A stretch of DNA of 64,000 nt from assembly GCF_030408795.1 (NCBI RefSeq), contig NZ_CP047211.1:2232001-2296000 (forward strand), given 5' to 3'. The DNA is from Corynebacterium hansenii. GTDB taxonomy: Bacteria; Actinomycetota; Actinomycetes; Mycobacteriales; Mycobacteriaceae. A model generated the notes under the pieces. It made no database searches. It had not been told where the DNA came from and saw only the letters and a list, made by a program, of their open reading frames with translations. Position numbers and translations under genes: made by a program. This document shows, in pieces, positions 18,709-48,861 of the stretch (the first letter of the stretch is position 1; each line of letters begins with the position of its first letter).

Positions 18709-18807
18709 CTCGTCAACGCCAGGCATTACTCCCTTATGCCCTGTTCAACGGCACTTATTCATGAGATGATGGAGACAAAGAGCCACATCGAATGAAAGGA
18801 GAACGCC

Positions 18808-19125
18808 ATGAAACAGGCACCGAAGGCGCCGAGGAAAAACGAGAAGCTGGTCAAGAGCAAAGCCACCTTCGGCTCCGACGAACTCGCCGGGCTGCTGGAG
18901 AACCTCGCCGAACGCATCCGCGCCGGAGAGATGACGCTCGGCACCGGCGACGCAGCCGTGACCATGCCCATGCCGCCGTCGTTCCGCACGACGATGGAGG
19001 TCACCGACTCCGCCAAGCGCGCCGGCATCGAACGGGAACTGGAGCTGGAGATCAAGTGGAACGTCGACGGTGACGGCAATCCCGTCGACAAGCCGGGACC
19101 GGCCGCCGGGTTCAGCATTTCGTAG
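18808..19125 (+). CDS. Amphi-Trp domain protein
   Basis: A 105-residue protein. The body from about residue 23 (ELAGLLENLAERIRAGEMTL) through the strand FRTTMEVTD to the end ELELEIKWNVDGDG matches amphi-Trp domain proteins, small soluble proteins of unknown function common in actinobacteria and archaea. GAAAGGAGA lies 5-8 nt before the ATG. It heads a run of small co-oriented genes, but without overlap. Confidence 0.8.
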   Translation: MKQAPKAPRKNEKLVKSKATFGSDELAGLLENLAERIRAGEMTLGTGDAAVTMPMPPSFRTTMEVTDSAKRAGIERELELEIKWNVDGDGNPVDKPGPAAGFSIS

Positions 19126-33884: not shown

Positions 33885-36577
33885 CAGTTCTCCTCCGATT
33901 CAACGGCGACGGCCACGGGTGCGCCGCAATGCGCATCCCACATCCGCCGATAAGCCCCACCCGCCGCGACGAGCCGGGAATGCGTGCCCTCTTCCACCAC
34001 TTTCCCCTCGTCCAGGACGAGGATCCGCGATGCGTTCCTGATCGTGTGCAACCGATGGGCGATCATCAGCACCGTCTTGCCCGCCAGCAGGCGTTCGAGC
34101 CCCCGGTGGATCGCGGCCTCGGAGTCCGGGTCGGCCGCGGCAGTGGCCTCGTCCAACACGACGATCGGGGTATTCGCCAGCAGCGCGCGGGCGCTGGCCA
34201 CCCTCTGGCGCTCACCGCCGGAAAGACGGTTCGGTTCGACCACGGTGTCGTAGCCGTCGGGAAGCGCTTCGATGACCCGGTGCACGTCCGCCGCCTCCGC
34301 AGCCTCGCGGATCTGGGCGTCGGTCGCTTCGGGGCGGTTCAGCGCGATGTTGTCGCGGATGCTCGCGTGCACCAGCTGGGCATCCTGCAGCAGCACCGAC
34401 ACCGAGGAATACAGCTGCTCCTGGGTGAGATCGCGCACGTCGACGCCGTCGATGCTGACGGAACCGCCGGTGACGTCCCACAGCCGGGCCAGCAACGCCG
34501 CCACCGTCGACTTGCCCGCCCCCGACGGGCCCACCAGCGCGGTGACGCTGCCGGGCTCCAGGGTGAGGGAAAGGTCGTCGATGACCTTCCGGCCGCCGCC
34601 GTAGGAGAAATCGACGTGGTCGAAGCGCACGTGGCCCGGGGGCGCGGGCCGGTCCACCGGCGGCGCGAGCTCCGGCGTCGCCAGGAACAGCTCGACTCCG
34701 GCCTTCGCCTCGAGTCCGCCCGACAGGCTCGCCGCCCCCAACCCGAGGTTCAGCAGCCGGCCGCCGAACGACGTGCCCAGGATGAGGAAGGGGATCAGAT
34801 CCGTCGCCGGCATCCAGCCCGCCACGACCATGGCGAATCCCGCCACCAGAAGCACGCCCAGCACCGTGGTGGGGCGGTTGGTCATCACCGCGATGATCTT
34901 GCGGGGGCCGGTGTCGCGCTGCCAATCCGCCATGAAGTCACCGGATTCCCGCAGCGTGCCCTCGAGGTCGACGACCGCCTTCGGCCCGAAGACCGCGGAG
35001 GTCCCGCGCGAGCCGATGAAGGCCTGCGTCTGGCCCGCCGCCAGCACCTCGTACCTCTGGTTCTGCAGCACCTTTTCCTTGTCGCGGCGCTGGATCCCCT
35101 TGAGGACGTAGATGTACGCGACGATCGGCAGGAGCAGGACCAGCCCCAATCGCCATTGGACGGCGAACAGGTAGATCAGGCTGCCCAGTGCCGCGACGAC
35201 GGCGCCGACGATGTCGGGCACCGCGTGGGTGACCAGGTAGTGCAGCGACCTGACGTCGTCGCCGGCGATCTTCTTGACGTCGGCCGCCCGGCCGCGCATG
35301 AACCAGCCCAGCGGCAGCCGGGAGAATTTCGCCATGAGGCGATGCCGCAGCGCCGTGGCGAAGTTGGCGTCCAGGTGGTGCAGCCACAGCACCAGCAGCG
35401 ACGTTCCCACGGCCGAGATGGCCATCGCGACCACGGCCCAGATCGCCGGCCGGGCGAAGGCTTCCGCCGGGGCCCCTCCGACGAACAGCCGCGCCAGCTC
35501 CGCGAACAGGATGAAGGGGATCAGCTGCAGCAGGGACAGCGCCCCCTCGACGATGCCGGCGGCGATGAGCGGGCGCTTGAGCGGCCGGAGCACACCGTCC
35601 TCGGAGGCGTCGGATGCAGTTGCCGTGGCGTTGACATCGGAGCCAGCGCCGTCGGCAGCGGCAGCGGCCGCGCCACCGACGTTGCCGGAACCGCCCGCTC
35701 CATTCGGGCCCGCAGATGCCCGACTCTCCCCGACGGTCGCGGACTCAGCCGACGCAGCCGACGCAGCTGACGCAGCCGGCGCAGCCGACGCGCCCTTCGC
35801 CGCGGGCGCCTCCGGACCCGCCGAATCGATGGTCTGCGTCTTGCCCATCTGGCGTCCGCGGACCCAGTAGGCGTGCGCGTGCAAGGTCGCTCGGTTGAGG
35901 CCGAATTTCCTCTGCAGCAGTGTCTTCGCGTGCCGGGTCGACGCGGTTTCCGCGGTCACCCAGGCGTACCAGCCGGCCCAGTCCCCGTCGCTGATCGCCT
36001 GGACCAGCGCCTGCCCGTCGGGAAGCTCGTCGACCCAGGACGCGGTGATGTTCGGGCCCTCGGGCAGGGCGATGTGGTCGTCGTCGGGGCTGTGCCGCTC
36101 CAGGTAGACGACCACGGGGCTCTCCTCGGGGATGGCGGCGACCAGAGCGCGGATCGCCGGATAGCCGGCGAGGTCCCCGAGCAGCAGGTACCCCGCCGGG
36201 GGCGGCTCGGGCGGGGCGAAGGGCTGCTCGCCGTAGCGCATGGCGACGATCCGGTCGCCCTCCTCGCAGTTCACCGCCCAGTGCGAGGCGGGCCCGGCGG
36301 GCTCGTGGATGACGAAATCGATGGAGAACTCGCCGGTCGCCGGATCGGGATCGACGAGCGTGTAGCCGCGCTGGAACTCCTTCGGGCCGCCGTCGGGGTC
36401 GGGGAACCAGAGGCGCAGCCAGTTCGCCGGCGCTTCCCCCTTCGGATCGAGCAGCCCTTCCGAGCGGCACGTGACCCGGATGAAGTGCGGCGCGAGCCGG
36501 CGTTTCCCGATCACGGTCACCGCATGTTCCTTGGCGCCCAGGCCACGGAGTACGACGGCCTCAAACCCCTTCGCCAT
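33884..36577 (-). CDS. irtA: Siderophore-interacting domain fused to ABC transporter, IrtA-like
   Basis: An 897-residue fusion. Residues 1-260 are a siderophore-interacting (FAD-binding ferric reductase) domain: FIRVTCRSEGLL, FQRGYTLVDPDPATGEFSIDFV, ASHWAVNCEEGDRI and LLGDLAGYPAIRALVAAIP, ending AYWVRGRQMGKT. Residues 265-340 are an Ala/Ser/Gly-rich linker with a 9-bp DNA repeat. Residues 350-640 hold the six membrane helices and the rest is the ATPase (GPSGAGKST, LSGGERQRVASARAL, VVLDEATAAADP). It brings in a ferric siderophore and reduces it at the inner face. The start at 36577 has AAAGGTGAG upstream. A DtxR-like box lies 63 bases before the start. Confidence 0.88.
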   Translation of the reverse strand: MAKGFEAVVLRGLGAKEHAVTVIGKRRLAPHFIRVTCRSEGLLDPKGEAPANWLRLWFPDPDGGPKEFQRGYTLVDPDPATGEFSIDFVIHEPAGPASHWAVNCEEGDRIVAMRYGEQPFAPPEPPPAGYLLLGDLAGYPAIRALVAAIPEESPVVVYLERHSPDDDHIALPEGPNITASWVDELPDGQALVQAISDGDWAGWYAWVTAETASTRHAKTLLQRKFGLNRATLHAHAYWVRGRQMGKTQTIDSAGPEAPAAKGASAAPAASAASAASAESATVGESRASAGPNGAGGSGNVGGAAAAAADGAGSDVNATATASDASEDGVLRPLKRPLIAAGIVEGALSLLQLIPFILFAELARLFVGGAPAEAFARPAIWAVVAMAISAVGTSLLVLWLHHLDANFATALRHRLMAKFSRLPLGWFMRGRAADVKKIAGDDVRSLHYLVTHAVPDIVGAVVAALGSLIYLFAVQWRLGLVLLLPIVAYIYVLKGIQRRDKEKVLQNQRYEVLAAGQTQAFIGSRGTSAVFGPKAVVDLEGTLRESGDFMADWQRDTGPRKIIAVMTNRPTTVLGVLLVAGFAMVVAGWMPATDLIPFLILGTSFGGRLLNLGLGAASLSGGLEAKAGVELFLATPELAPPVDRPAPPGHVRFDHVDFSYGGGRKVIDDLSLTLEPGSVTALVGPSGAGKSTVAALLARLWDVTGGSVSIDGVDVRDLTQEQLYSSVSVLLQDAQLVHASIRDNIALNRPEATDAQIREAAEAADVHRVIEALPDGYDTVVEPNRLSGGERQRVASARALLANTPIVVLDEATAAADPDSEAAIHRGLERLLAGKTVLMIAHRLHTIRNASRILVLDEGKVVEEGTHSRLVAAGGAYRRMWDAHCGAPVAVAVESEEN
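35746..35796 (-). repeat. 9-bp tandem repeat in the irtA linker
   Basis: On the plus strand the unit GACGCAGCC is repeated about five times with small changes. It keeps the reading frame and encodes an Ala/Ser run in the linker. Slippage would change linker length by three residues. Confidence 0.6.
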
Positions 36578-36639
36578 CGACCACTCACCTTTCGAGGATG
36601 GGTCCCGTCGCAAAGCGCACGGGACCGACGTAGACAGTT

Positions 36640-36658
36640 GAAGGGCAGCCTAGCCTAA
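36640..36658. promoter_or_regulatory. DtxR-type iron box upstream of irtA
   Basis: The 19-mer GAAGGGCAGCCTAGCCTAA matches the DtxR consensus TTAGGTTAGCCTAACCTAA at 14 of 19 positions, including the whole right half but one. It lies between the divergent irtA and MerR genes. DtxR would repress irtAB when iron is plentiful. Confidence 0.7.
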
Positions 36659-36743
36659 GTATGTGAAGGGTTCCATCGGGCCCGGCCATCGGTAAGATAG
36701 CGCCACTGCCCAATGCGGCCATCCACGATCGAAAGGGCGACGG

Positions 36744-37385
36744 ATGAAGCTCGGCGAGCTGGCGGCGGCCACGGACACGTCGACCGCGACCATCAAGTAC
36801 TACATCCGCGAGGGCCTGCTTCCGCCCGGGGCGAAGAAGAACCAGACCACGTCCGTCTACGGCCCCGCGCACCGCGGGCGCCTCGAATTGATTTCCGCTT
36901 TACGACGCCTCGTCGGCCTCTCGATCAACCAGATCCGCACCTTGACCACCGCAATCGACGACCCGGGCACCGGGATTCTGACGATCATGCAGACCGCCCA
37001 GGTCCTCGGCGGCGGCCTGATGCCCGATGCCGACGGTTTGCCCGAGGTCGAGAATCCGGCGGCCGAGGCGCTGATCGACGGCGTCGTCGCCGGGCAAAAG
37101 TGGCCCGACTCCCCCAGCATCGCCCGGAACGCGGCGGTGGCCGTCGTCGATGAGCTGATGAGCCTCGGCCTAGACGTCGACGACGACCACCTCGCCGTCA
37201 TCGCCAGCGCCGTCGATGCGATCTCAGGGTCGGCCATCGACATGGACGACTCCCGCGACCGGATTGCGATGAACGTAGCCGTCGGCACGCACCGGTACTC
37301 GCGATTGGTGCTGGCTCTGCTGCAGATGGGGCACACGTCGCACAGCATCGCCCGGGCGCGGCGCGATGCCCTCGACCACCCCTAG
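36744..37385 (+). CDS. MerR family transcriptional regulator
   Basis: A 213-residue regulator. The N-terminal winged HTH reads KLGELAAATDTSTATIKYYIREGLLP, followed by the helix VGLSINQIRTLTTAI. The C-terminal half is helical and lacks a metal-binding Cys pattern, so it is not a metal sensor of the usual kind. GAAAGGGCGA precedes the ATG. It is divergent from irtAB, and TAAGAT near 36693 may be its -10 box; a role in the same regulation is possible but unproven. Confidence 0.82.
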   Translation: MKLGELAAATDTSTATIKYYIREGLLPPGAKKNQTTSVYGPAHRGRLELISALRRLVGLSINQIRTLTTAIDDPGTGILTIMQTAQVLGGGLMPDADGLPEVENPAAEALIDGVVAGQKWPDSPSIARNAAVAVVDELMSLGLDVDDDHLAVIASAVDAISGSAIDMDDSRDRIAMNVAVGTHRYSRLVLALLQMGHTSHSIARARRDALDHP

Positions 37386-37453
37386 CCGCAGCGCCCCTCT
37401 CCCACCGCAACGCCCGGAGCAGTGGTACGGAGCCGACTTCACCCCCTCCCCGC

Positions 37454-37521
37454 CAGATGCGCCAGTTCCAGGCAGATGCGCCCGTTGCAACGGGTGTATC
37501 TGCACGGAAATGGCGCATCTG
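37454..37521. repeat. Hairpin repeat E1
   Basis: CAGATGCGCCAGTTCC at 37454-37469 pairs with 37506-37521 (one mismatch); inside it, GCAGATGCGCCCGTT pairs imperfectly with AACGGGTGTATCTGC. The whole 68 bases fold into one long stem. It lies between the convergent MerR and SMI1 genes. Copies E2 and E3 are at 38027 and 43684. Confidence 0.8.
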
Positions 37522-37553
37522 AGCCGCGGATCCGCCCCGGATTCGGACGAGCG

Positions 37554-37928
37554 TCACTCGTCGAAGATCAGCTCGATCGGCTCCGGTTCCGGCTGTTCGT
37601 GGTCCCAGAGGTAAAAGCGGTCGTCGCCGGGCAGGAGAATGATCGCGTTGCCCGCCTGATCGTCGGCGACGGCGACGGCGTCCTGCGGGAATCCGTGGGC
37701 CCAGGAGCGCCACGTTTCGGTTTCCTTCACCACGTGATTCGCCGAGCGGGCGAGACGGCGGCGGTCGGAATCGTCATACACCGGGTAGAGGAACCAGTAT
37801 CCCTCGTAGGCGTCGTCGATTTCGCCGCCGTTCTCCGACATCAAGCGCTGCCGCAAAGCGTCCGGGAAGGTGCGCCCCAATGCTTCCTCAGCAGCGCGGA
37901 TACGTGATTCATCGACTGGAAAGGCCAT
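37554..37928 (-). CDS. Short SMI1/KNR4 (SUKH) protein
   Basis: A 124-residue acidic protein. The order RIRAAEEALGRTFPDALRQRLMSENGGEI, WFLYPVYDD, DAVAVADDQAGNAIILLPGDDRFYLWDHE is the classic SMI1/KNR4 pattern: N-terminal helix, then two beta units with Asp-Gly turns. SUKH proteins often serve as immunity proteins, but no toxin is adjacent. The ATG at 37928 follows TAACCT by 6 nt. Confidence 0.85.
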   Translation of the reverse strand: MAFPVDESRIRAAEEALGRTFPDALRQRLMSENGGEIDDAYEGYWFLYPVYDDSDRRRLARSANHVVKETETWRSWAHGFPQDAVAVADDQAGNAIILLPGDDRFYLWDHEQPEPEPIELIFDE

Positions 37929-37934
37929 GGGAGA

Positions 37935-37940
37935 AGGTTA
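37935..37940 (-). promoter_or_regulatory. -10 box TAACCT for the SMI1 gene
   Basis: TAACCT on the minus strand lies 6 nt before ATG 37928, leaderless spacing. Confidence 0.5.
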
Positions 37941-38026
37941 CTCGACGCCCCAGCCCTCGGCACCAGGAATCAATGCTCTGATGCCGGCCCTGCCGCCGGC
38001 TCACGCCGCCCCCGACATCATCCCTC

Positions 38027-38094
38027 CAGATGCGCCAGCTCCAGGCAGATGCGCCCGTTGCAACGGGTGTATCTGCCTGGAACTGGCGCACCTG
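38027..38094. repeat. Hairpin repeat E2 (left island edge)
   Basis: CAGATGCGCCAGCTCC and GGAACTGGCGCACCTG form the ends of a 68-base stem like E1. It is followed by three tandem 31-bp units. Confidence 0.8.
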
Positions 38095-38105
38095 AGTGGG
38101 GGTGG

Positions 38106-38187
38106 AACCCAAAACTGGCGCATCTCGGTGGGGCGGAACCCAAAACTGGCGCATCTCGGTGGGGCGGAACCCAAAACTGGCGCATCC
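38106..38187 (+). repeat. 31-bp tandem repeat, three copies
   Basis: AACCCAAAACTGGCGCATC begins at 38106, 38137 and 38168, an exact 31-bp period; the third copy is cut after 20 bases. The ACTGGCGCATC part equals the right arm of the E hairpin. One further copy lies behind E3 at 43762. Confidence 0.8.
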
Positions 38188-38224
38188 ACGACGGCGAACC
38201 CGAAGCCGAAGCAGCCCCGCCGGG

Positions 38225-38252
38225 CTACACGGTGAACTTGAACTCCCCACGT
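38225..38252 (-). pseudogene. Duplicated 3' end of ychF
   Basis: The plus-strand bases CTACACGGTGAACTTGAACT and following CC repeat the ychF 3' end at 43810-43831 with a single mismatch in 22 bases, then CCACGT follows in both with one base shift. On the minus strand it reads EFKFTV then TAG, against EFKFNV TAG in the intact gene. It sits behind an E repeat exactly as the real ychF end does. This is the left edge of the island. Confidence 0.7.
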
Positions 38253-38380
38253 GCCCAAAACACAGGGCGGTCTCAATGCATGTTGGGGTATTCTCGCGCA
38301 AGGTGATGTAGACCGAGCGGCGGCATGTTCGCAACCTGGATCGCATCTATCCGACGACCGGATCGTGCCAGCACGGATCA

Positions 38381-38640
38381 TCATCGGTCCTCCTGCAGCC
38401 ATCCCAGTCGCTGCTCGGCGTAGGCCAGCGCGACGGTGACCTGCCGGAGGTCGTTGTCCGCCTCCTGGATGCGGTCGCAAAGGCAGGGCACCGGCAGTGC
38501 ATCGGCCTTCCCGGTCAGCCAACTCGCCGAGCTCACGCCGCTCTTCATGAGCAGCCTGCAGCTGGTCCTCGAGGGGCGCGCAACTGGCGCGCGCCCCTCG
38601 GGCGACCTTGGCGTGATGGTCGGGATTGGTCGCCGTGAGA
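38381..38640 (-). pseudogene. Broken coiled-coil gene remnant
   Basis: Two minus-strand frames look like pieces of one protein: PLEDQLQAAHEERRELGELA in one, then CDRIQEADNDLRQVTVALAY and AEQRLGWLQEDR in another, ending at TGA 38381. One frameshift near 38500 would join them. Both pieces are charged helices. It may be a leftover of a mobility gene, but I cannot name it. Confidence 0.35.
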
Positions 38641-38811
38641 GGGCGGGCCGGGCGGAAAGCCCGGACAGATTCAGGTTGCGGAACTGCTGCGGAAACCCCT
38701 CGGAACTTCCGCGACGGTGTTCGAGGTTCTTGTGCGTCGGCGCGCACGGACCAAGGCTGGAGCAGCGGGTACGGCCTGCGATCATCGAAGGGCACTGGCT
38801 TGGAGGTATGG

Positions 38812-40209
38812 ATGAATAGGGTTTTCGCGGAGGAAACCACTCTCGTGGACAACCGCCTCACGCTCGCACTCGCGCCCGGGCTGGGGCCGGACGGACTCAA
38901 CGCGTCCCCCAGCTTCTTCCACGGCTTCGCCACCCACCCGCAGGTGCTCGCCCGCGGACTCGTGACACTCGCCGACATCACCGCCACCCGCTATTACAAC
39001 TTCACTCCGATGTCGGAGCGCGACCCGATCCTTTCCGCACACGGCGATCGGCTGCGGGCCGAGTGTTTCTCGGGGTGCAACGCCGTCTATGCGTGCTTCG
39101 AGTTGATGGGCTCGGGCCTGGACGGCGGGGACATCGGACGCGGCACCACCAACGTCGACATCGGCCCCGCGTCCAGGGTGATGCTGTCCAACCTGCCGCG
39201 CAATGAACTGCTGCACGTCGACGTCGGCGCAGAGGGGCTGCGGGCGGCGACGCCGGCGGCTTCCACGATTGAGCGTCCCGTGACGATGCCGCCGCGCTGG
39301 GTGCGCGCGCTGGGCAACGCGGCACAGTCGCAACAAGGCTTCGTCGAGGCGTTCCGGGTGCCGGCCTCGGGTGCGCGCCGGTTCCTTGCCGGATTGCCGC
39401 CCGCAAGCGTGTCCGGACGCTCGGCCTGGCTGTCCGCGGCCCGCGGCGCGGTGAAAACCAGCGCGGTGGCGACGCCGGGAGCGGTGTTGGTCAGCGGTCT
39501 GCAGCGGCTGAGCGCGCTGAAACGGCTGATGCCGCACGTGCAAGGACTCATCGTCCACGGCCCCGCCGACGAGCACACCGTCGGTGCGATGATCACTCTG
39601 CAGCTTCCGGACGCCCGACTCACCCTCGGGCTGACCGACAAGGAGTGGCGCGGCTACTCCGGCGAAGGCTCCTTGCTGGCCTCGCTGGCAGCACCGACCG
39701 TCACGGAGGACGCCGACCTGGTCAGCGCCATGTTGGCCTTTGAGCCGATCATCGACGTCGCCCGGCTCACCAAGAACACCGCGCTTCCCGAGGCTCGGGT
39801 GAAGGCGGCGCTCGCGGTGCTCGCGGCCTCTGGCCGTGTGGGTTGGGACGTCAACGACCGGGCCTATTTCCACCGGGAACTGCCCGACTCGCCGGAGCGG
39901 GTCGAAAAGGACAACCCACGGTTGACTGCAGCGCAGAAGCTCGTGGCCGCCGACGCGGTGCGGAGCGCCGGCTCGGATGCCTGGATCGTCAAGTCGGGCG
40001 ACGCCGAATACGGCGTGCGGCTCGGTCCCGACGCTGACGTCCCCGAGAAGGGCGCCACCTGCAGTTGCACCTGGTACCTCTCACACGCCGGTGACCGTGG
40101 GCCGTGCAAGCACGTTCTCGCAGTGATGCTGACGCACAACAAATCAGCGGCGACACCGCGGTCATCGAATGCGCCGGCAGAAGAATCGACCAGACCCACC
40201 GAGCGTTAG
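38812..40209 (+). CDS. SWIM zinc-finger protein
   Basis: A 465-residue protein. The only recognisable domain is a SWIM zinc finger near residues 417-434: CSCTWYLSHAGDRGPCKH, with the CxC...CxH ligands intact. The earlier part is alpha/beta and unassigned (SLPHVQG-like stretches, LTLGLTDKEWRGYSGEG near 275). SWIM fingers bind DNA or proteins. GGAGG lies 5 nt before ATG 38812. The next gene starts 8 bases after the stop, so the two form an operon. SWIM genes of this type are often seen with large HEAT-like partners and, elsewhere, with MoxR ATPase and VWA genes; those are absent here. Confidence 0.82.
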   Translation: MNRVFAEETTLVDNRLTLALAPGLGPDGLNASPSFFHGFATHPQVLARGLVTLADITATRYYNFTPMSERDPILSAHGDRLRAECFSGCNAVYACFELMGSGLDGGDIGRGTTNVDIGPASRVMLSNLPRNELLHVDVGAEGLRAATPAASTIERPVTMPPRWVRALGNAAQSQQGFVEAFRVPASGARRFLAGLPPASVSGRSAWLSAARGAVKTSAVATPGAVLVSGLQRLSALKRLMPHVQGLIVHGPADEHTVGAMITLQLPDARLTLGLTDKEWRGYSGEGSLLASLAAPTVTEDADLVSAMLAFEPIIDVARLTKNTALPEARVKAALAVLAASGRVGWDVNDRAYFHRELPDSPERVEKDNPRLTAAQKLVAADAVRSAGSDAWIVKSGDAEYGVRLGPDADVPEKGATCSCTWYLSHAGDRGPCKHVLAVMLTHNKSAATPRSSNAPAEESTRPTER

Positions 40210-40217
40210 GCACCCGA

Positions 40218-43200
40218 ATGAAACTCAACCCGAGGCTGAATGAGGCCGTCGAGATCTTTCGTGAATTAGGTTGGGACGAGGCTGATGTTGCCGATGCACC
40301 AACCCTGCCGCTGGGCACGGAGGAGCAACGGAAGGCGGCACTGGCTGGGCTGAAGACCGGCGACTGGGGCGAGTACGGGAAGGTTGATCCGATCTCTTAC
40401 GGCTGGATCAGCGCGGTTGACGTCGACCGCAACATGCTCGCCCTGTTTGCGCTGCGCCTCGGTGTGAGCGCGAGAAGGGCAGAGTCGCTGCTCTCGCTCA
40501 CCGACGACGTTGCTTTGGCCAGGTGTGTTGCCCAGCGCGGCGAGGCTTACGCCGCCCAGTTCATCGGGCGGGTGTGCCGCTCCAGCCGGAGGGGGACTGA
40601 GCACTCTCTGTCCGTCTATGGAGCGGCGGCCGTCCGGTTGGTGTGCGAGCTGGGGCTGGCCGTCCCGGAAAATGCCGAGTACCTCAAGGACTGGGCGGTG
40701 GTAGCGCTCGCGGCACTCACCGGGGACGTCGCCGAGGTCTCGTGGCCTGAAGATCGCACGCTCCCGACCCTCGAAGAATTGCGTCCGTCAATTGACGAGC
40801 ACTGGCGGACAGCACTGCGTTCGGGTGTGCCGATGACGGGGCCTTTCGGCAAGGTGCTTTCCGCTGCAGTCAAGGCGGGGATGATCGAGCGTGACGCCGG
40901 CCTGGAGCAGCTCTTCGTGTCTCTGGACACGGCGGTGCGTCCAGGCGATCGCAAAGAACTCACGTCGTTGATCGTGAACGACTTCGCGGTGACCGACGAT
41001 GAACTGGTCGCCCGCGCCGACGCGCTGATCCCCGTGCTGAGTCATGGTGAGGCGCCGATCGTCGAGGGCTTCGGGCCTCGGCTGATCGCGAATGTAGCGG
41101 ACGCCCTGGTGGGCGAAGTGGCTCTGGCGTGCCTGTATGCCAAGACGCAGAAGGCGCTGCGGCAGGTGCTGACGGCCTTGAAGCAGCGGGCGTTCCCCGG
41201 GCAGGCGAGTGCTGAACTGCTCGCGGATCGGCTAGGCGAGCTCGCTCAGTCCCGCGACAAAGCCACGGTGAAGCTGGCCGAGGCCGTGCTGGCGAGTTGG
41301 AACGTGAGCCCCGAGGTCCCAAGCGAAGAGCCCGAGGTCGCCGGGTTGTGGCAGCCGACCCCGCCGCTGTGGAGCGTCCCAAGGTTTGAACTGGGTGAGG
41401 TTACCCCGGAGGCGTTGACCGAAGCGCTTCGGGTGTTGCTGTCTCGTGGTGACGTGGATGTGGTCGACCTGGGCGAAGACCGGTTCCTGGCACTTGCGGT
41501 CGCACTGGCCAACCAGAGTGTGGACGACACTCGAAGGGCGTTGAGTGGGGTTTCGTCGAGTTACTACTGGTCTGGCCCCATCCACTACTGGCTGGCAGAT
41601 GAGCCGGTGCATACGTCTCGGCAGGAGCCAAGCCCCTTGTGGGACATGCGTGTGGGGAGCGTGTTTGAGCATCTCGGGCAGATCCCTTGTCTGCTGTCGC
41701 AGCCGTCGCGGGTTGATCTGAGTATTGAATTCGACGATCTGGTTGCGTCCTTGGAAAAGTATGCGGCCGCGGGTGTGCCGGTGTTGCAGGCAGACCTGGT
41801 GATGGCGCTGGCCCGGCTGGATGTGACCACGGCAGACGCCAATGCGAACCTGCCCGAGGTCGCGGTGAGGCTGGCAGTCGGCACGCTGCTCGACCGTGAC
41901 ACCGCCGAGGTGGTGGCCGAGTACCTGGCAGACCCGTTCGTAGAGATTGATGCTCGATCTGCCTTGTCGGCCCAATTCGACGGTGTGGGTTGGCTGGATT
42001 CGTTGGGCGGGTTGAGCAGCAATCTGTACTTCGAAAAGTGGATCGCGAGATATTTCGGGGTGTTCCCCCACTGGGGCGACGCCCTGAACGTCCGCCTTCA
42101 TCGACTCGAGCCGGACGTGGCGTCGGTCATCGCCCGGCAGTTGGCTCGCAGCGCCAAGCCACTTGGGCCCGGCGGGGCGGTGAACCTGCTGGCAGTGCAG
42201 CGTCAGGGCCGTCCCGAGCATGCCACCGAGTCGGCGTTGGCGCTGCAGGAAGCCTGGGAGCACGGGCTGTTGGTGCCGGGTGTCGCCGACATCGGCTACC
42301 TCGACTGGGATGGCGAGCTGCGCAACATCGCGTCCTTCGTCGAGTCCCTGCGCGACGCGGCCGATGGCGGCATGTTGTCGGTGGTCTGGCCCATTTTGGA
42401 CGACGTGCTCGTCGCCTCTCTCAAAGCCCCGCGGCTGTTGGCCGGCACGGCCGAGGCGGCTCAGGCGATGCAGGATTACGTCGGCGAGGTGCTGGCCGCA
42501 GTCGCCTCGGGGGTTGCGCCGGCGTCAGCGTGTGACGTCCCGGGCGTGCGGGCTCTGGCGGCTCGGAGCGGGTCGTCCAAGGCGGTTGTGGCGGCCAAGG
42601 CTGTTGTCCGGCAATTGCCCGACCGAGCGGCGGAACCCGCGAAGCCTGCCAAGCCCTCGCTCGACCCGGCGCAATTCGACCAGATCTGGCCGGCCGAGGC
42701 CGGGACCAAGCCGAACGTCCCGGATGGGGTGACGTACTCGCTGCGCTGGTCGAGTTCGAACACGAAGCAGACGCACCTGCAACTCGACATGGTTGTGCCC
42801 GGCTACCCGGGGGCCGTGTTCGAGATCAATAGTCCGACCAGATGGCTCTACGACATCGCGGAGGAGGGGCAGGCCATCTCCAGGCGGGTGAGCCAGGACG
42901 AGCCGGAAGGCAAGGAAAGCTGGCTGCATTGGGACGGCAAAGCCCTGGTCTCAGACGATTTCAGGAACTGGCGCAAGGGCACGGACCGCCGACTGAGCAG
43001 GGCTGCAACTGAGCTTTCCGACGCGCTGGTTGCGGTATTGATCGCTTACCTGGCAGTCCGCGCCGACGACGTCTATATGACGCGGGAACGGGCGACGGAA
43101 CGGGTACAACGCTTGGCCGAAAAGGGGGCGTACGGCTCCGCTGCCGTGAAGGCCGCCGCGATCGGGTTGCTGCCGTACCACGAGGTGTGGAGCCCGGCGC

Positions 43201-43496
43201 GAGTGGTGTACGTCCTGGAGAAGCAGCCCGAGTTGCTGCCGTTCCTGTGGCCGCTGTTGAGCGAACCCCTGCGGTTTGCCGGGGACCAGGACTCCGTACC
43301 GAAGTGGGCCAACCGCGTCCTCGACGTCGTGACGCTGCACGCCGGGATCCTGCTCGAAGCCACCCGCCGCGGCTACGTCCCGGCTGATGCGTGGGACGGC
43401 ATCGGCGCGTTGGCGGCGAAGAAGGGTTCGTCCGTGGCGCTGAAGAAAGCTCGGGCGCTGGCCGCGGACTTCGGCAGAGCCAAGTCCCTGAGCTGA
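40218..43496 (+). CDS. Large HEAT-like protein, partner of the SWIM protein (DUF6493-like)
   Basis: A 1092-residue soluble protein. Most of it is built of paired helices with Leu/Ala spacing, suggesting HEAT- or ARM-like repeats; no enzyme motif was found. The last third begins with a strand-rich part (GVTYSLRWSSSNTKQTHLQLDM region) and ends in helices (EKGAYGSAAVKAAAIGLLPY). The size and pairing with a SWIM protein recall DUF6493-type proteins, an uncharacterised group; this match is from memory and moderate. It starts 8 bases after the SWIM stop. No membrane segment or signal is seen. Confidence 0.75.
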   Translation: MKLNPRLNEAVEIFRELGWDEADVADAPTLPLGTEEQRKAALAGLKTGDWGEYGKVDPISYGWISAVDVDRNMLALFALRLGVSARRAESLLSLTDDVALARCVAQRGEAYAAQFIGRVCRSSRRGTEHSLSVYGAAAVRLVCELGLAVPENAEYLKDWAVVALAALTGDVAEVSWPEDRTLPTLEELRPSIDEHWRTALRSGVPMTGPFGKVLSAAVKAGMIERDAGLEQLFVSLDTAVRPGDRKELTSLIVNDFAVTDDELVARADALIPVLSHGEAPIVEGFGPRLIANVADALVGEVALACLYAKTQKALRQVLTALKQRAFPGQASAELLADRLGELAQSRDKATVKLAEAVLASWNVSPEVPSEEPEVAGLWQPTPPLWSVPRFELGEVTPEALTEALRVLLSRGDVDVVDLGEDRFLALAVALANQSVDDTRRALSGVSSSYYWSGPIHYWLADEPVHTSRQEPSPLWDMRVGSVFEHLGQIPCLLSQPSRVDLSIEFDDLVASLEKYAAAGVPVLQADLVMALARLDVTTADANANLPEVAVRLAVGTLLDRDTAEVVAEYLADPFVEIDARSALSAQFDGVGWLDSLGGLSSNLYFEKWIARYFGVFPHWGDALNVRLHRLEPDVASVIARQLARSAKPLGPGGAVNLLAVQRQGRPEHATESALALQEAWEHGLLVPGVADIGYLDWDGELRNIASFVESLRDAADGGMLSVVWPILDDVLVASLKAPRLLAGTAEAAQAMQDYVGEVLAAVASGVAPASACDVPGVRALAARSGSSKAVVAAKAVVRQLPDRAAEPAKPAKPSLDPAQFDQIWPAEAGTKPNVPDGVTYSLRWSSSNTKQTHLQLDMVVPGYPGAVFEINSPTRWLYDIAEEGQAISRRVSQDEPEGKESWLHWDGKALVSDDFRNWRKGTDRRLSRAATELSDALVAVLIAYLAVRADDVYMTRERATERVQRLAEKGAYGSAAVKAAAIGLLPYHEVWSPARVVYVLEKQPELLPFLWPLLSEPLRFAGDQDSVPKWANRVLDVVTLHAGILLEATRRGYVPADAWDGIGALAAKKGSSVALKKARALAADFGRAKSLS

Positions 43497-43561
43497 CTGA
43501 GGACGTCTACGAGGCGATCACCGTGGAGGTCGAACGGCTCTCGACGCAGCGACGAGGCGAC

Positions 43562-43654
43562 TCACGCGGTCTGCAACGGCTGGATGCTGTCGGGCGAATC
43601 GCCAAGCATCGGCTCGATCAGCTCACCCTCGGTGGCAGTCGACGAGTTCGGCAT
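43562..43654 (-). CDS. Possible 30-residue protein or gene fragment
   Basis: A minus-strand frame encodes MPNSSTATEGELIEPMLGDS and ten more residues. GGAGG lies 8 nt before the ATG, a perfect ribosome site, and the codons are ordinary for the organism. It may be a true small protein or the N-terminus of a gene cut when the island formed. No homology is recognised. Confidence 0.35.
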   Translation of the reverse strand: MPNSSTATEGELIEPMLGDSPDSIQPLQTA

Positions 43655-43683
43655 CTTCTGCACCTCCATCTCTCCAGACGAAA

Positions 43684-43751
43684 CAGATGCGCCAGTTCCA
43701 GGCAGATGCGCCCGTTGCAACGGGAGTATCTGCACGGAACTGGCGCATCTG
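43684..43751. repeat. Hairpin repeat E3 (right island edge)
   Basis: CAGATGCGCCAGTTCC at 43684-43699 pairs perfectly with 43736-43751 (16 bp); the inner stem matches E1 and E2. A further AACCCAAAACTGGCGCATC copy starts at 43762. It lies between the convergent HEAT-like gene and ychF and could end both. Confidence 0.82.
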
Positions 43752-43809
43752 CGAGGGGCGGAACCCAAAACTGGCGCATCTGCGAGGGGTGGGCGGTGCG
43801 CCCGCCGCC

Positions 43810-44889
43810 CTACACGTTGAACTTGAACTCCACCACGTCGCCGTCGTGCATGATGTAGTCCTTGCCCTCCTGGCGGACCTTGCCCTTCGCCTTCGCCTCG
43901 GCCATGGAGCCGCACTCGACGAGGTCGTTGAACGACACGATCTCCGCCTTGATGAAGCCACGCTCGAAGTCCGTGTGGATCACGCCGGCGGCCTGCGGGG
44001 CGGTGGCGCCCTTCGGGATCGTCCACGCGCGGGATTCCTTCGGCCCGGCGGTCAGGTAGGTCTGCAGGCCCAGGGTGCGGAAACCGGCGCGGGCCAGGGA
44101 GTTCAGGCCGGGCTCGGTCTGGCCGATCTCGGCGAGCAGCTCGTTGCGGGACTCCTCATCCAGCTCCAGCAGGTCGGACTCGGCCTTCGCGTCGAGGAAC
44201 ACGCAGTCGGCGGGCTCGACGGCGGACGCCAGTTCGGCGCGCTTGTCCTCGTCGGCCAGCACCTCCTCATCGGCGTTGAACACGTAGAGGAACGGCTTGG
44301 CGGTGAGCAGGTGCAGTTCGCGCAGCGCCGCCATGTTTACGTCGCCCTTGGCGGCGAAGAGGGTGCGCCCCTCCTCCAGCACGGCCAGCGCGTTCTTGAC
44401 GGCCTCGACCTCGCCGGCCTTCTCCTTGTCCTTCTTGGCTTCCTTCTCCAGGCGCGGGATGGCCTTTTCGATGGTCTGGATGTCGGCGAGGATCAGCTCG
44501 GTTTCGATGACGCCGATGTCGCTGGCGGGATCGACCTTGCCGTCGACGTGCACGACGTCGTCGTCGGCGAAGACGCGCACGACCTGGCAGATCGCGTCGG
44601 CTTCGCGGATGTTGGCCAGGAATTTGTTGCCCAGGCCCTCGCCTTCCGACGCGCCCTTGACGATGCCGGCGATGTCCACGAAGGACACCGTCGCCGGCAG
44701 GATCCGCTCGGAGCCGAAGATCTCGGCGAGCTTCTCCAGCCGCGGGTCCGGCAGCTCGACCACACCGACGTTGGGCTCGATGGTGGCGAACGGGTAGTTC
44801 GCGGCGAGCACGTCATTGCGGGTCAGCGCATTGAACAGGGTTGACTTGCCGACGTTGGGCAGACCGACGATTCCAAGAGTAAGGCTCAC
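43810..44889 (-). CDS. ychF: Redox-regulated ribosome-binding ATPase YchF
   Basis: A 359-residue Obg-family P-loop protein, an ATPase despite its GTPase fold. G1 is GLPNVGKST near residue 8, G3 is DIAG near 68, and the N-A-D-E motif is FNADEE near 205 in place of NKxD, as in YchF. The central coiled coil (EKAIPRLEKEAKKDKEKAGE) and the C-terminal TGS-like domain (FERGFIKAEIVSFND, then DGDVVEFKFNV) are complete. The GTG at 44889 follows TAGGAT by 7 nt. An ATG at 44898 overlaps that -10 box and is less likely. Confidence 0.92.
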   Translation of the reverse strand: MSLTLGIVGLPNVGKSTLFNALTRNDVLAANYPFATIEPNVGVVELPDPRLEKLAEIFGSERILPATVSFVDIAGIVKGASEGEGLGNKFLANIREADAICQVVRVFADDDVVHVDGKVDPASDIGVIETELILADIQTIEKAIPRLEKEAKKDKEKAGEVEAVKNALAVLEEGRTLFAAKGDVNMAALRELHLLTAKPFLYVFNADEEVLADEDKRAELASAVEPADCVFLDAKAESDLLELDEESRNELLAEIGQTEPGLNSLARAGFRTLGLQTYLTAGPKESRAWTIPKGATAPQAAGVIHTDFERGFIKAEIVSFNDLVECGSMAEAKAKGKVRQEGKDYIMHDGDVVEFKFNV

Positions 44890-44896
44890 GCGCCCC

Positions 44897-44902
44897 ATCC
44901 TA
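44897..44902 (-). promoter_or_regulatory. -10 box TAGGAT for ychF
   Basis: TAGGAT on the minus strand lies 7 nt before GTG 44889, leaderless spacing. Confidence 0.55.
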
Positions 44903-45062
44903 CGGCCCCGGTTTCGCTTTACGACGATCCGGTCTCCCCCACCCACTCCGGATCCCGGTTGCGGGGTGGCGCGTGGGCGTCGTCAAGCGAAAGCCGACGC
45001 CGGGGACGACGCACGGATGGACGCAAACGCACCGCCAGATGAACGGAAAGTGTGACGGGGGT

Positions 45063-45155
45063 TACAATATGGCCGCCGAAACCATATGCTGTCCTTACCC
45101 GGGCGACCGGGCAAAAGGTCAGCAACCTTAAGTCTGGCTGATAAAATCACAGCCA
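45063..45155 (+). promoter_or_regulatory. metPS promoter region with two inverted repeats
   Basis: Two -10 choices exist: TACAAT at 45063 and TAAAAT at 45142. AAGGT-cagca-ACCTT (45115-45129) and TGGCTG-N9-CAGCCA (45135-45155) are inverted repeats; the second encloses TAAAAT, so a bound regulator would block the promoter. The regulator is unknown; I see no McbR-type TAGAC-N6-GTCTA. Confidence 0.45.
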
Positions 45156-45183
45156 ACTATCCCCCTTGGCAAATGGAGACACC

Positions 45184-46917
45184 ATGAGCAACCAGAAGAC
45201 CGGCCACGCCGGCACGAAGCAGGGTCGGGAGGTGTTTTCCACCCGGGCGGCGTTCATCTTCGCCGCGATCGGCTCCGCCGTCGGGCTGGGCAACATCTGG
45301 CGATTCCCCTACGTCGCCTACGAATCCGGCGGCGGCGCCTTCCTGATCCCCTACATCGTCGCGCTGATGTCCGCCGGCATCCCGCTGCTGTTCCTCGACT
45401 ACGCGCTGGGCCACCGCTACCGCGGCTCCGCCCCCAAGGTTTTCCGCCGCATCAAGCCGTGGGCGGAGACGATCGGCTGGATCCAGGTCGGCGTCGCATT
45501 CTTCATCACCATCTACTACGCGGTGATCATCGCCTACGCGGCCATTTACGCGTTCAAGTCGATCGACAAGGCGTGGGGCGACGACCCCGAGACCCACTTC
45601 ATGGGCGACTTCCTGCAGCTCGACGCCAACGCGCTGTCGTCCTTCGACTTCGTGGTGCCCATCACGATCATGCTGGCCGTGGTGTGGCTGATCGTCATCG
45701 GGATCCTGGCGCTGGGCGTGGACAAGGGCATCGGCCGCACCGCGCTGGTCTTCATCCCCCTGCTCGCCGTGCTGTTCGTCGGCGTGGTCGTTTACACCCT
45801 GACCCTCGACGGCGCGACCGCCGGCCTCGACGCCTTCTTCACGCCGAACTGGGCCGCCCTTAAGGACACCTCGGTGTGGATCGCCGCCTACGGCCAGATC
45901 TTCTTCTCGCTGTCCATCGCCTTCGGCATCATGCTCACCTACGCCTCCTACCTGAAGCCGCGCTCGAACCTGACCGGCTCGGCGCTGGTGGCCGGCTTCG
46001 CCAACTCCTCCTTCGAGGTCCTCGCCGGCGTCGGCGTCTTCGCCGCCCTCGGCTTCATGGCCGCCCAGACCGGAGTCGGGGTCGGAGAGGTCGTCACCGG
46101 CGGCATCGGCCTGGCGTTCATCGCGTTCCCCGCGGTCATCTCGCAGATGCCCGACGCCATCGGCCCGATCTTCGGCGTGGCGTTCTTCCTCTCGCTGGCC
46201 ATCGCCGGCCTGACTTCGCTGGTCTCGCTGGTGGAGGTCGTCATCTCCGCCGTGCAGGACAAGCTGCACCTGCCGCGCGTGCCCGCGGTGCTCGCCGTCG
46301 GCGGCGTCATGGCGGTCGTGTCGGTGCTCCTGTTCCCGACCACCTCGGGCCTGGTGACCCTGGACGTCATGGACAAATTCACCAACAACGTCGGCATCGT
46401 CGGCGTGGCCATCATCTCGCTGATCTCGCTGGGGTGGGTCCTCCGCCGCGGCGACGAGCTGGCGCTGCACATCAACGCCGTCTCGTCGTTCCGCGTCGGC
46501 GTCCTGTGGAAGGTCTGCACGTTCATCATCACGCCGATCGTGCTCGCCATCACCCTGTTCAACGAGCTGAAGGGCCTGCTCGCCGAGAACTACGAGGGCT
46601 ACTCGGACATCCAGATCAACGTCTTCGGCTGGGGCGTCATCGGCTTCATCCTGGTGTCGTCGGTCATCATGGCGGTCGCCCCCTGGCGCGGCACCCACTC
46701 CCTGTCCGGCCCGCCCGGCTCGGACTTCGGCGTGCCGGTCGGTTTCTCCTCCCGAGAGAAGGACCGCTCCAACGGCAACACGATCGTCAACGGCAACTCG
46801 CCCGCCGACGGCAATTCCCACGCCGACGGTGCCCCCGTCACCGTCGGCGGCTCCCCCGGAACGGCGACCGCCGCGTCATCGCCGGATTCCCCCATCGACC
46901 GCGGCGGGAAGGTGTAG
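45184..46917 (+). CDS. metP: Sodium-dependent methionine/alanine transporter, large subunit
   Basis: A 577-residue neurotransmitter:sodium symporter-type carrier with about twelve hydrophobic segments. The N-terminal GSAVGLGNIWRFPYVAYESG is the family signature with the sodium-site residues. In Corynebacterium glutamicum MetP with the small MetS imports methionine and alanine with Na+. The small subunit gene follows at once, which supports the same role here. The C-terminal tail of about 60 residues is Asn/Gly/Ser/Pro-rich and looks disordered. GGAG precedes the ATG. Confidence 0.9.
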   Translation: MSNQKTGHAGTKQGREVFSTRAAFIFAAIGSAVGLGNIWRFPYVAYESGGGAFLIPYIVALMSAGIPLLFLDYALGHRYRGSAPKVFRRIKPWAETIGWIQVGVAFFITIYYAVIIAYAAIYAFKSIDKAWGDDPETHFMGDFLQLDANALSSFDFVVPITIMLAVVWLIVIGILALGVDKGIGRTALVFIPLLAVLFVGVVVYTLTLDGATAGLDAFFTPNWAALKDTSVWIAAYGQIFFSLSIAFGIMLTYASYLKPRSNLTGSALVAGFANSSFEVLAGVGVFAALGFMAAQTGVGVGEVVTGGIGLAFIAFPAVISQMPDAIGPIFGVAFFLSLAIAGLTSLVSLVEVVISAVQDKLHLPRVPAVLAVGGVMAVVSVLLFPTTSGLVTLDVMDKFTNNVGIVGVAIISLISLGWVLRRGDELALHINAVSSFRVGVLWKVCTFIITPIVLAITLFNELKGLLAENYEGYSDIQINVFGWGVIGFILVSSVIMAVAPWRGTHSLSGPPGSDFGVPVGFSSREKDRSNGNTIVNGNSPADGNSHADGAPVTVGGSPGTATAASSPDSPIDRGGKV

Positions 46918-46921
46918 CGCA

Positions 46922-47089
46922 ATGTCCGGAATCGCAATCATCATGATGGTCCTGTTCATCGTGATCATCTGGGGAGGCTTCGTCACCGCCCTGGTCAACC
47001 TGTCCAACAACCCCGATGAATCCGCCGGCGAACTCGGCCAGTACGCCGCCACGAGCAACGAGGAACTCGCCGCGCTCGAGCAGCAGTAA
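46922..47089 (+). CDS. metS: Methionine/alanine transporter small subunit
   Basis: A 55-residue protein: one membrane helix (AIIMMVLFIVIIWGGFVTAL) and a short acidic tail ending ALEQQ. It matches MetS-type small subunits of NSS transporters, which are needed for transport by MetP. It starts four bases after the metP stop. The ATG at 46922 is the only suitable start. Confidence 0.9.
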   Translation: MSGIAIIMMVLFIVIIWGGFVTALVNLSNNPDESAGELGQYAATSNEELAALEQQ

Positions 47090-47165
47090 CCGAGGACACC
47101 GGACCGCCGACGGAGTGTCGGCCCCGATTCGCCGAACCGCCGGCGGAAGCGCCGGCCACGGTCCC

Positions 47166-47214
47166 CGAAAGGGCCGCCGGAGCATGCGCGATGCATGCGC
47201 CGGCGGCCCTTTCG
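47166..47214 (+). terminator. Terminator of metPS
   Basis: A perfect 15-bp stem CGAAAGGGCCGCCGG/CCGGCGGCCCTTTCG encloses 19 bases that contain GCATGC twice. It lies 77 bases past metS; no U-tract follows. Confidence 0.75.
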
Positions 47215-47301
47215 CCGTCACCCGGCCCCGTGCGGGGTGAATTTTGCTCAACGAGCGAGTGAAACGTCGCGATGCGCCCGACACTGACGTTCGAATTGCC
47301 C

Positions 47302-47307
47302 CATAAT
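47302..47307 (+). promoter_or_regulatory. -10 box CATAAT for the AI-2E-type gene
   Basis: CATAAT lies 6 nt before GTG 47314, leaderless spacing. This supports GTG 47314 over an ATG 42 bases upstream. Confidence 0.58.
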
Positions 47308-47313
47308 GGAAGA

Positions 47314-48861
47314 GTGAACAAAGACGAAGGAACCCGCGGCGACAATCACGCCCGAGACGATCGCGACATGATCGACGAGGTCCTGGGCACCGAACCCATG
47401 CGCGTGGACCAGGCGCTGTCCGTGCCTGACGACGCGCACGAGCAGCGCGCCTCCACCCCGGACCTCAAGGAGGGCGGGAAGGAGCTCGGCGACCTGATCG
47501 AGGAGTCGGAGAGCGAGACCATCGACCGCGCCGACGTCATCGGCGAAGGCGCCCGCTGGTTCGCCGGCTGGTGCCTGCGTTTCCTCATCGTCTGCGCCGC
47601 CCTGTTCGTCGCCTTCACGGCGCTGGGCAAGGTGTGGGCCGGGCTCCTGCCCGTGCTGCTGGCGCTGATCGTCGCGACCGTCCTCGGGCCGCCCGCGGCG
47701 TACCTCATCCGCCACAAGTGGCCGGATGCCGCCGCCGCGGCGGTGTCGCTGCTCGGCGCGGTGGCCATCGTCAGCGGCGTCATCGCCATCATCGCCCCGA
47801 CCGTGCGCTCCCAGCTGCCCCACCTGAAGGACCAGTTCACCCAGGGCATCATGGAGCTGCAGAAGGTGCTGCAGGGCCCGCCCTTCAACGTCAAGGACGA
47901 GCAGCTGCTCGATTTGCTCGACCAGGCCACCTCGTGGGTGCAGCGCCGCTCCGGCGACATCGCCAACACCGTGTTGCAGGGCATCACGGTCGTCGGCAAC
48001 GTCACGGTGACCCTGCTCGTCATGCTGGTGCTCACGTTCTTCTTCATCAAGGACGGCCGCAAGTTCCTGCCGTGGCTGCGCTCCATCGCCGGCCGCCGCC
48101 TGGGCTGGCACCTCACCGAGGTCCTGACCCGCTCGTGGGACACCCTGGGCGGATTCATCCGCACCCAGGCGCTGGTGTCCTTCATCGACGCGATCTTCAT
48201 CGGCCTGGGCCTGTGGCTGCTCAACGTTCCGCTGGCGTTGGTGCTGGCCGTGATCACGTTCTTCGCGGGCTTCATCCCGATCATCGGTGCGGTTTCCGCC
48301 GGCTTCATCGCCGTCGTCGTGGCGCTGATGGCCAACGGCCTGACCACCGCGCTGCTGGTTCTGGCGCTGATCGTCGTGGTCCAGCAGGTCGAGGGCAACA
48401 TCCTCTCCCCGATGCTGCAGTCCCGCGCCATGAACCTCCATGCCGCGATCGTGCTGCTGGCCGTGACGCTGGGCGGCACGCTGTTCGGCATCGTCGGTGC
48501 GTTCCTCGCGGTGCCGGTCGCCGCGGTGCTCGCGGTGTGGCTGCGCTACCTGGGCGATCTGACGGATCTGCGCACGGGCGACAAGACCGCCGCGGACATC
48601 AAGTTCGCCACCGAAGCCGGGTCGATCTCCGGCCTGCAGACCGAGGCCGCCGGCCGCGCCATGCGCGATCGCCTGGCGTCGCTGCGGTTGGGCGGCAAGC
48701 GCGACGATGACGACGCCGAGGGCCCGAAGGACGGCGACGCTCCCGCGCCCACTACCGCGACGGCGAACGATCCGCTGGCCGGCAAGCCGGGCGACGGGCC
48801 GACGACGACCGCCTTCGGCCGCCTCGGTGACGCGGTGACGGGACGTTTCCGCCGCCGCTGA
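47314..48861 (+). CDS. AI-2E/PerM family transporter-like protein
   Basis: A 515-residue protein. An acidic N-terminal region of about 75 residues precedes two hydrophobic segments, a soluble loop (TVRSQLPHLKDQFTQGI ... LLDQATSW), then five or six more segments with FFIKDGRKFLPWL, GGFIRTQALVSFIDAIFIG and VQQVEGNILSPMLQSRAMNLHAA, the family signature. The C-terminal 80 residues are charged. The family includes exporters of AI-2 and ion antiporters; the role here is unknown. Confidence 0.87.
   Translation: MNKDEGTRGDNHARDDRDMIDEVLGTEPMRVDQALSVPDDAHEQRASTPDLKEGGKELGDLIEESESETIDRADVIGEGARWFAGWCLRFLIVCAALFVAFTALGKVWAGLLPVLLALIVATVLGPPAAYLIRHKWPDAAAAAVSLLGAVAIVSGVIAIIAPTVRSQLPHLKDQFTQGIMELQKVLQGPPFNVKDEQLLDLLDQATSWVQRRSGDIANTVLQGITVVGNVTVTLLVMLVLTFFFIKDGRKFLPWLRSIAGRRLGWHLTEVLTRSWDTLGGFIRTQALVSFIDAIFIGLGLWLLNVPLALVLAVITFFAGFIPIIGAVSAGFIAVVVALMANGLTTALLVLALIVVVQQVEGNILSPMLQSRAMNLHAAIVLLAVTLGGTLFGIVGAFLAVPVAAVLAVWLRYLGDLTDLRTGDKTAADIKFATEAGSISGLQTEAAGRAMRDRLASLRLGGKRDDDDAEGPKDGDAPAPTTATANDPLAGKPGDGPTTTAFGRLGDAVTGRFRRR

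Follow-up and report, generated by a model that had tools for sequence, protein, structure and literature searches.

Staphylococcal cassette chromosome (SCC) elements such as SCCmec are serine-recombinase cassettes at the 3' end of rlmH (orfX), and they are defined by this attachment site and by a Ccr-type serine recombinase. Integrons hold arrays of cargo modules that each end in a recombination site and that are added at one fixed insertion place. Here, we describe a locus at the 3' end of ychF that resembles both. It was found in a 64,000-nucleotide stretch of the 3.10 Mb single-contig genome of Corynebacterium hansenii (G000:C1:2232001-2296000; hereafter the window, with positions counted from its first letter; handles such as G000 and L116 denote genomes and loci), in which a genomic island with a gene for a SWIM zinc-finger protein lies behind ychF. 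The likeness to SCC lies in a large serine recombinase (LSR), in the 3' end of a house-keeping gene that is left intact, in tandem composites, in remnants lacking a recombinase and in metal-resistance cargo. However, the target is ychF, a single LSR gene abuts it, the hosts are Actinomycetota and C-terminal residues of the host protein are exchanged. We do not count the locus among the SCC elements because its site is ychF and not rlmH; the LSR is known here as a protein with PF00239 and PF07508 domains. In contrast to integrons, the recombinase is a serine and not a tyrosine recombinase, and the site is a gene tail rather than an attC hairpin.

Accretion of decayed elements has also been described. 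Part of the text of PMC5704250 deals with the tandem accretion of integrative and conjugative elements and integrative and mobilisable elements (IMEs), in which decayed cis-mobilisable elements (CIMEs) keep their attachment sites, accrete at one target gene and are mobilised by another element. According to the same part, site-specific serine-recombinase IMEs disrupt dispensable genes (PMC5704250), whereas in the present case the 3' end of ychF is replaced and the gene stays readable. Moreover, an excerpt of PMC10383233 places a satellite prophage of Streptococcus pneumoniae in the intergenic region upstream of ychF; the ychF neighbourhood as integration site is shared, but the upstream intergenic position and the phylum of the host differ. 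Judging by its title, PMC6375853 is likewise about the pneumococcus. No description of LSR elements at ychF was found in the literature, in which the broader topics were covered in part, and ychF is not mentioned in the main text of PMC8304765, which is concerned with mobile elements of C. striatum. An LSR cassette system at this gene may perhaps be new to the literature.

We propose, with a probability of about 0.8, that a family of LSR elements of actinomycetes uses the 3' end of ychF as its chromosomal attachment site and that the island in the window represents such a cassette in a decayed state. The 22-base end of ychF, CTACACGTTGAACTTGAACTCC, matches the window twice at up to three mismatches, at ychF itself (43810-43831, no mismatch) and at 38225-38246 (one mismatch), both matches being on the plus strand, and 100 shuffles of it gave no window match. 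The initial annotation, which was made from the letters of this stretch, had postulated a 28-base copy of the gene end at the left edge. The copy is real and has the same orientation as the true tail, but the clean match covers 22 bases (21/22 identical) and not 28; its translation to EFKFTV-stop, as against EFKFNV-stop for the true tail, was borne out. Next to the tails, both edges carry a palindrome termed E and a 31-bp repeat.

A comparison within the species shows what such an edge can hold. The genome G181, flagged as the same species, has its ychF and SUKH genes about 1.5 kb apart. When it was aligned with positions 34001-48000 of the window, the alignment ran from 48000 down to 43810, which is the ychF stop, and resumed only at 37949 by the SUKH gene. 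Between its own ychF tail and a second tail copy, G181 carries a short-chain dehydrogenase (SDR) gene; it has no match to the SWIM gene, and neither E nor the 31-bp repeat is present at its cassette edges. Hence, cargo alternates within the species at an identical proximal boundary, as had been expected of other strains. Likewise, ychF is not always followed by the SWIM pair: a SWIM match, sometimes of a fragment only, was obtained in 23 of 242 genus genomes, and a YchF match in 151 of 151, although the match is weak in G083, G113 and G119 and may be to another GTPase.

Displaced tails are found across the genus. The region downstream of ychF was inspected in 83 genomes, of which 77 were picked by a hand-made rule (at most five contigs among the 151 with a YchF match) and six (G001, G034, G102, G000, G181 and G055) were already of interest. 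About 19.6 kb was read in 80 of them, 10.3 kb in G181 and about 18.5 kb in G055, so longer arrays are cut. With the 21-base tail at up to four mismatches, 53 displaced tails were detected in 29/83 genomes, all in the orientation of ychF, and no copy in the opposite orientation was present in the 83 genomes; for 40 shuffled tails, the mean was 0.05 matches and the maximum 1. Among the 77 genomes picked only for few contigs, 24 have a displaced tail. An 18-base core matched 41 times forward and never in reverse at two mismatches, and 55 times forward and once in reverse at three, and each genome's own tail as query recovered same-orientation copies in 15/83 genomes and opposite ones in 0/83. Furthermore, 33 of the 53 copies lie within six mismatches of a 19-nt outward arm, compared with 2 of 20,000 random windows; this control used three of the four reference arms, and the arms derive from the copies themselves. 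Several tails can follow one ychF gene (five within 18 kb in G009; four each in G060, G054 and G099), which indicates that the modules stand in tandem, with about 0.7 to 10 kb between successive tails.

These data also bear on the simplest explanation of the tail copy in the window, namely chance similarity or a local tandem duplication that has no link to mobility. The distal site of the window has no recognisable arm and a broken open reading frame (ORF) beside it has no homologue, as would suit such an origin. However, the shuffles yielded nothing, G181 has alternative cargo and the orientation is strict throughout the genus. We regard this explanation as the least credible of those considered; the comparison with G181 excludes it unless the G181 assembly is wrong.

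The most likely agent is an LSR family that targets ychF and that is invisible in the C. hansenii genome itself. An intact LSR of 503 aa (PF00239 Resolvase and PF07508 Recombinase, scanned in the G034 copy) is encoded 26 bp past the last FNV codon of ychF in G034 and G069, and relatives at an E-value of at most 1e-30 are present in 41/242 genus genomes. In named genomes, 29 LSR loci were found. In nine of these (L239-L247), a full-length LSR of 98-100% identity lies directly at ychF, 24-26 bp past the last FNV codon. Four of the nine are from Corynebacterium and five from Actinotignum, Varibaculum and Arcanobacterium, and the YchF proteins of these hosts are 66-92% identical to that of the window, as against 98-100% for the LSR. 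The two sets are not independent since L239, L265, L255 and L251 are the same contigs as G034, G055, G050 and G078, respectively. Among phages and plasmids, only relatives below 60% identity to this LSR were detected as carriers.

The recombinase gene is not always intact. One module, in which stops interrupt the LSR gene, abuts ychF in Helcobacillus, Gleimia, C. haemomassiliense and C. stercoris. Its copies share 97.7-99.7% identity over about 2.3 kb, although the YchF proteins of these hosts are 68-77% identical to that of the window. C. jeikeium, another Corynebacterium and Pseudoglutamicibacter share a second broken-LSR module (99.3-99.8% identity over 3.3 kb), the copies of which have no ychF gene within 3 kb. 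Modules with a broken LSR have thus spread between orders, which suggests movement in trans, most likely with the recombinase supplied from elsewhere. Actinotignum belongs to the Actinomycetales and Helcobacillus to the Micrococcales, and Corynebacterium represents a third order.

The cargo of the arrays is diverse. In two arrays, of which 10 ORFs each were scanned, there are an N6 methylase with an HsdR-like N-terminus, HigBA, P-type ATPases, a multicopper oxidase, a response regulator with a kinase, a DyP peroxidase and a weak nSTAND match below the cut-off. A conserved module end with what we take to be a merA-like reductase and a MerR-like gene recurs in six genomes (ORFs from five), the Pfam scan covering one reductase only.

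Direct repeats of a gene 3' end are typical of islands that are inserted by tyrosine integrases (cf. PMC5704250, in part), and such an integrase or a prophage might have made the tail duplications. However, PF00589 had no match within 50 kb of ychF in the 11 genomes searched and it is LSR genes that sit directly at ychF, so this origin is very improbable.

The position of the exchange can be read from the two kinds of junctions. The end of ychF can be written as GAC GTS GTS GAG TTC, in which the second GTS encodes the Val that directly precedes the final EF(K/R)FNV. In the 33 displaced copies with an arm, the arm hardly varies as far as GT, which itself is present in 31, and the base that follows is C in 15, G in 16, A in one and T in one. 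At the 13 junctions on the LSR side (nine are at ychF), it is the base preceding GT that varies, with GTG and the following sequence being constant. These reciprocal junctions place the crossover at GT, as a serine recombinase would leave it.

An exchange at this position also accounts for the C-termini of YchF, which fall into discrete types in the 83 regions (FNV, FNVT, TGLTSGSKK-like and DFKIGG). In 17/83 genomes the tail is neither FNV nor DFKIGG, for instance EFRFNVT or EFRTGLTSGSKK, and such tails are expected because integration at GT would swap the last codons. An LSR match is present in the stretch read in 14 of these 17 genomes as against 5 of the 52 with FNV, and 11 of the 17 carry a displaced FNV-type tail. 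In the 14 DFKIGG genomes, neither a displaced tail (with the FNV tail or the genome's own tail as query) nor an LSR match was detected; the clade with this tail may be naturally immune.

The sequence of events that we envisage is as follows. A circular element would recombine with ychF at GT in the Val codon before the final EF(K/R)FNV-stop. Thereby, ychF would end in the last codons that the element brings along, and its former tail would come to lie at the distal end of the insert. Further insertions at ychF would stack cassettes, each closed by a displaced ychF tail, and cassettes with a broken or missing recombinase would be moved in trans. The window island (38247-43809) would then be a decayed cassette with a SWIM/DUF7824-like pair, a HigBA remnant, no recombinase and a degenerate distal site, and the E palindromes and 31-bp repeats would be passengers that came later or were borne by the donor. 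The sequences themselves show the displaced tails, the other cargo within the species, the LSR gene beside ychF and the reciprocal junctions; catalysis by the LSR, mobilisation in trans and the arrival of this particular island by such a route are inferences. The features of the island and its surroundings are the following:

37554-37928, minus strand: SUKH (SMI1/KNR4) gene just beyond the distal edge (Pfam SMI1_KNR4, E-value 2e-14)
38027-38094, no strand: E palindrome at the distal edge, read as a passenger repeat, absent from the G181 cassette edges
38104-38186, plus strand: three 31-bp repeats at the distal edge (four genome copies, all at the two island edges)
38225-38246, minus strand: displaced ychF 3' end (EFKFTV stop), putative distal island boundary (21/22 tail match)
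38381-38785, minus strand: broken ORF for which no homologue was found
38812-40209, plus strand: SWIM zinc-finger gene, 465 aa, cargo (Pfam SWIM, E-value 4e-6; PADLOC SWIM_XIII, 2e-41)
40218-43496, plus strand: large partner gene, 1092 aa, cargo (DUF7824/HEAT-repeat family via relatives)
43608-43690, minus strand: HigBA toxin-antitoxin remnant (end of higB, start of higA), with similar modules directly after ychF in other species
43684-43751, no strand: E palindrome of the proximal edge, adjoining the higB remnant
43760-43780, plus strand: 31-bp repeat core at the proximal edge
43810-43831, minus strand: ychF 3' end, putative attachment core (predicted crossover GT at 43832-43833, minus strand)
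43813-44892, minus strand: ychF coding region, 360 aa (Pfam YchF-GTPase_C, 1e-40; genus search)

The island has tails at both ends and no recombinase, so that it may plausibly be a CIME, but its distal site is degenerate. Between its edges there are only the broken ORF, the SWIM gene, the 1092-aa partner and about 80 bp of HigBA beside the proximal E. The short ORF that the initial annotation had suspected near the right edge is present, but it is this HigBA remnant, which resembles modules following ychF in G139, G111 and G001; the gene described there as broken (38381-38785) has no homologue in Pfam, NCBIfam, PADLOC or a protein search. This ORF was also considered as a relic of an LSR and rejected because eight LSR queries gave no window match at an E-value of at most 0.1 and the ORF has no homologue. 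The 1092-aa partner has no direct Pfam match, and some of its relatives are annotated as PF25148, DUF7824 or HEAT repeat; relatives were seen in Gulosibacter, Pseudoglutamicibacter, Brevibacterium and Corynebacterium riegelii. The SWIM gene and its large partner possibly serve in defence. The name of the PADLOC model, SWIM_XIII, presumably refers to retrons of type XIII, which would have a reverse transcriptase and an ncRNA next to the SWIM gene; Pfam scans of six window proteins, both cargo genes included, revealed no reverse transcriptase, and an Rfam scan of 36500-45500 gave nothing at gathering scores.

G060 and G055, both of which have broken LSR copies at ychF, contain the same pair at about 81% DNA identity, and there it lies about 11-22 kb downstream of ychF. 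The SUKH gene of the window is 89% and 84% identical at the DNA level to that of G060 and G055, where it stands beside SWIM in the ychF arrays. Between SWIM and SUKH, G055 has about 1.2 kb more sequence than G060 (L119, about 17680-18870). Remnants of SWIM are also found 35-38 kb from ychF in G034 and G069. In most of the other genomes for which the positions of both genes are available, SWIM is not close to ychF, which suggests that the pair also travels by other routes.

The repeats at the two edges deserve a separate account. The initial annotation was right that E and the 31-bp repeat occur at both edges. The core of the latter, GGAACCCAAAACTGGCGCATC, has four copies in the whole genome at up to three mismatches (38104, 38135, 38166 and 43760), every one at the island edges, and none in G181, G001, G056 and G099 at the same threshold. 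When the two edges are aligned, E is identical in 63 of 68 positions, the repeat core is identical, the tail matches in 21 of 22 and the spacers are mostly unlike. E is a 68-bp near-perfect palindrome, the flanks of which are often C-rich on the left and G-rich on the right, and G181 has many copies as well. In the window it is found at 37454-37521, 38027-38094 and 43684-43751; in the whole genome, its centre has 32 matches with two mismatches or fewer. At 37454 (window 37397-37521; L116), E is complete in the window but only its right arm is left in G181, so that within the species E seems to undergo both gain and loss of copies. When 24 distinct copies were compared together with their flanks, most proved to share nothing obvious past E; besides the island edges, two other neighbouring E pairs (L014 and L019) share flanks, which suggests local duplication of E plus flank. 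An assignment of E to the REP/RAYT elements was rejected because the genome has no Y1 transposase of the RAYT type (PF01797). E was likewise rejected as the integration site since its centre occurs at 32 genome places and the G181 cassette edges lack it.

In the initial annotation, it had been supposed that an integrase was lost or that the repeats themselves mediated the exchange. The first part stands insofar as this genome has no recombinase of the family. However, neither E nor the 31-bp repeat is required, because both are missing from the G181 cassette edges and no E copy is found in six tail-bearing genomes; with a query spanning E, none was detected in G099, G069, G001, G056, G034, G102, G039, G060 and G055, six of which have displaced tails. 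The idea nevertheless survives in another form, in which the island entered by RecA-dependent homologous recombination between E, the 31-bp repeat or the tail, for instance from a circle or linear DNA of a conspecific strain, and no site-specific recombinase took part. The order of E, 31-bp core and tail is the same at both edges, the 31-bp repeat is confined to them, neither of the two same-species genomes (G000 and G181) has an LSR of the family and the pairs at L014 and L019 show that E and its flank have been duplicated locally elsewhere. On the other hand, the G181 cassette has tails at both edges with neither E nor repeat, displaced tails occur throughout the genus, where 33 of 53 have an arm in common and many are close to an LSR gene, and the spacers between repeat and tail differ between the edges. 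Overall, we consider this route as rather unlikely, yet as the most serious competitor of the LSR proposal. The donor of the island may have been a strain in which E and the repeat were already present at ychF; transfer by LSR and transfer by homologous recombination would then look alike, and the last exchange may have been a homologous one. E and its flank may also have been copied locally at a later time, given that two other E pairs share flanks.

Several observations weigh against the proposal that an LSR system placed this island. In the window, the distal copy has GG on the minus strand at the expected GT position (38247-38248), i.e. the site is degenerate, and GT is kept at ychF itself (43832-43833). 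The outward arm of the window copy shows 13 mismatches to the nearest reference arm and does not match the common arm, which is missing in 20 of the 53 displaced tails altogether. No LSR of the ychF-targeting family is present in G000 or G181 at an E-value of at most 1e-30, no remnant of one was detected in the window with the eight LSR queries at an E-value of at most 0.1, and 15 of the 29 genomes with displaced tails, G000 and G181 included, have no LSR match in the stretch read. A plain LSR insertion would predict neither E nor the 31-bp repeat at both edges unless the donor circle carried them. Moreover, SUKH and SWIM are adjacent in G060, with about 127 bp between the matched blocks, and a ychF tail separates them in the window. 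Finally, one of the 56 core matches at three mismatches is in the opposite orientation, and all P values and figures are indicative only, as the genomes of a genus are not independent and most of the LSR queries (six of eight) derive from tested genomes.

Beyond C. hansenii, the data point, with somewhat less assurance than for the locus itself, to an SCC-like cassette system at ychF that probably extends across at least three actinobacterial orders. It would carry metal-resistance, defence-like and toxin-antitoxin cargo, spread even with a broken LSR and rewrite the C-terminus of YchF, a conserved ATPase, each time. A docking site together with its likely enzyme would explain the strain-specific islands at ychF in Corynebacterium and in other actinobacteria, and the sequence of the ychF tail is a marker for finding island ends. 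Moreover, an LSR with defined attB and attP sites would be a candidate integration tool for Actinomycetes. The system also raises the question of whether the exchange of the last residues of YchF is of consequence for the host.

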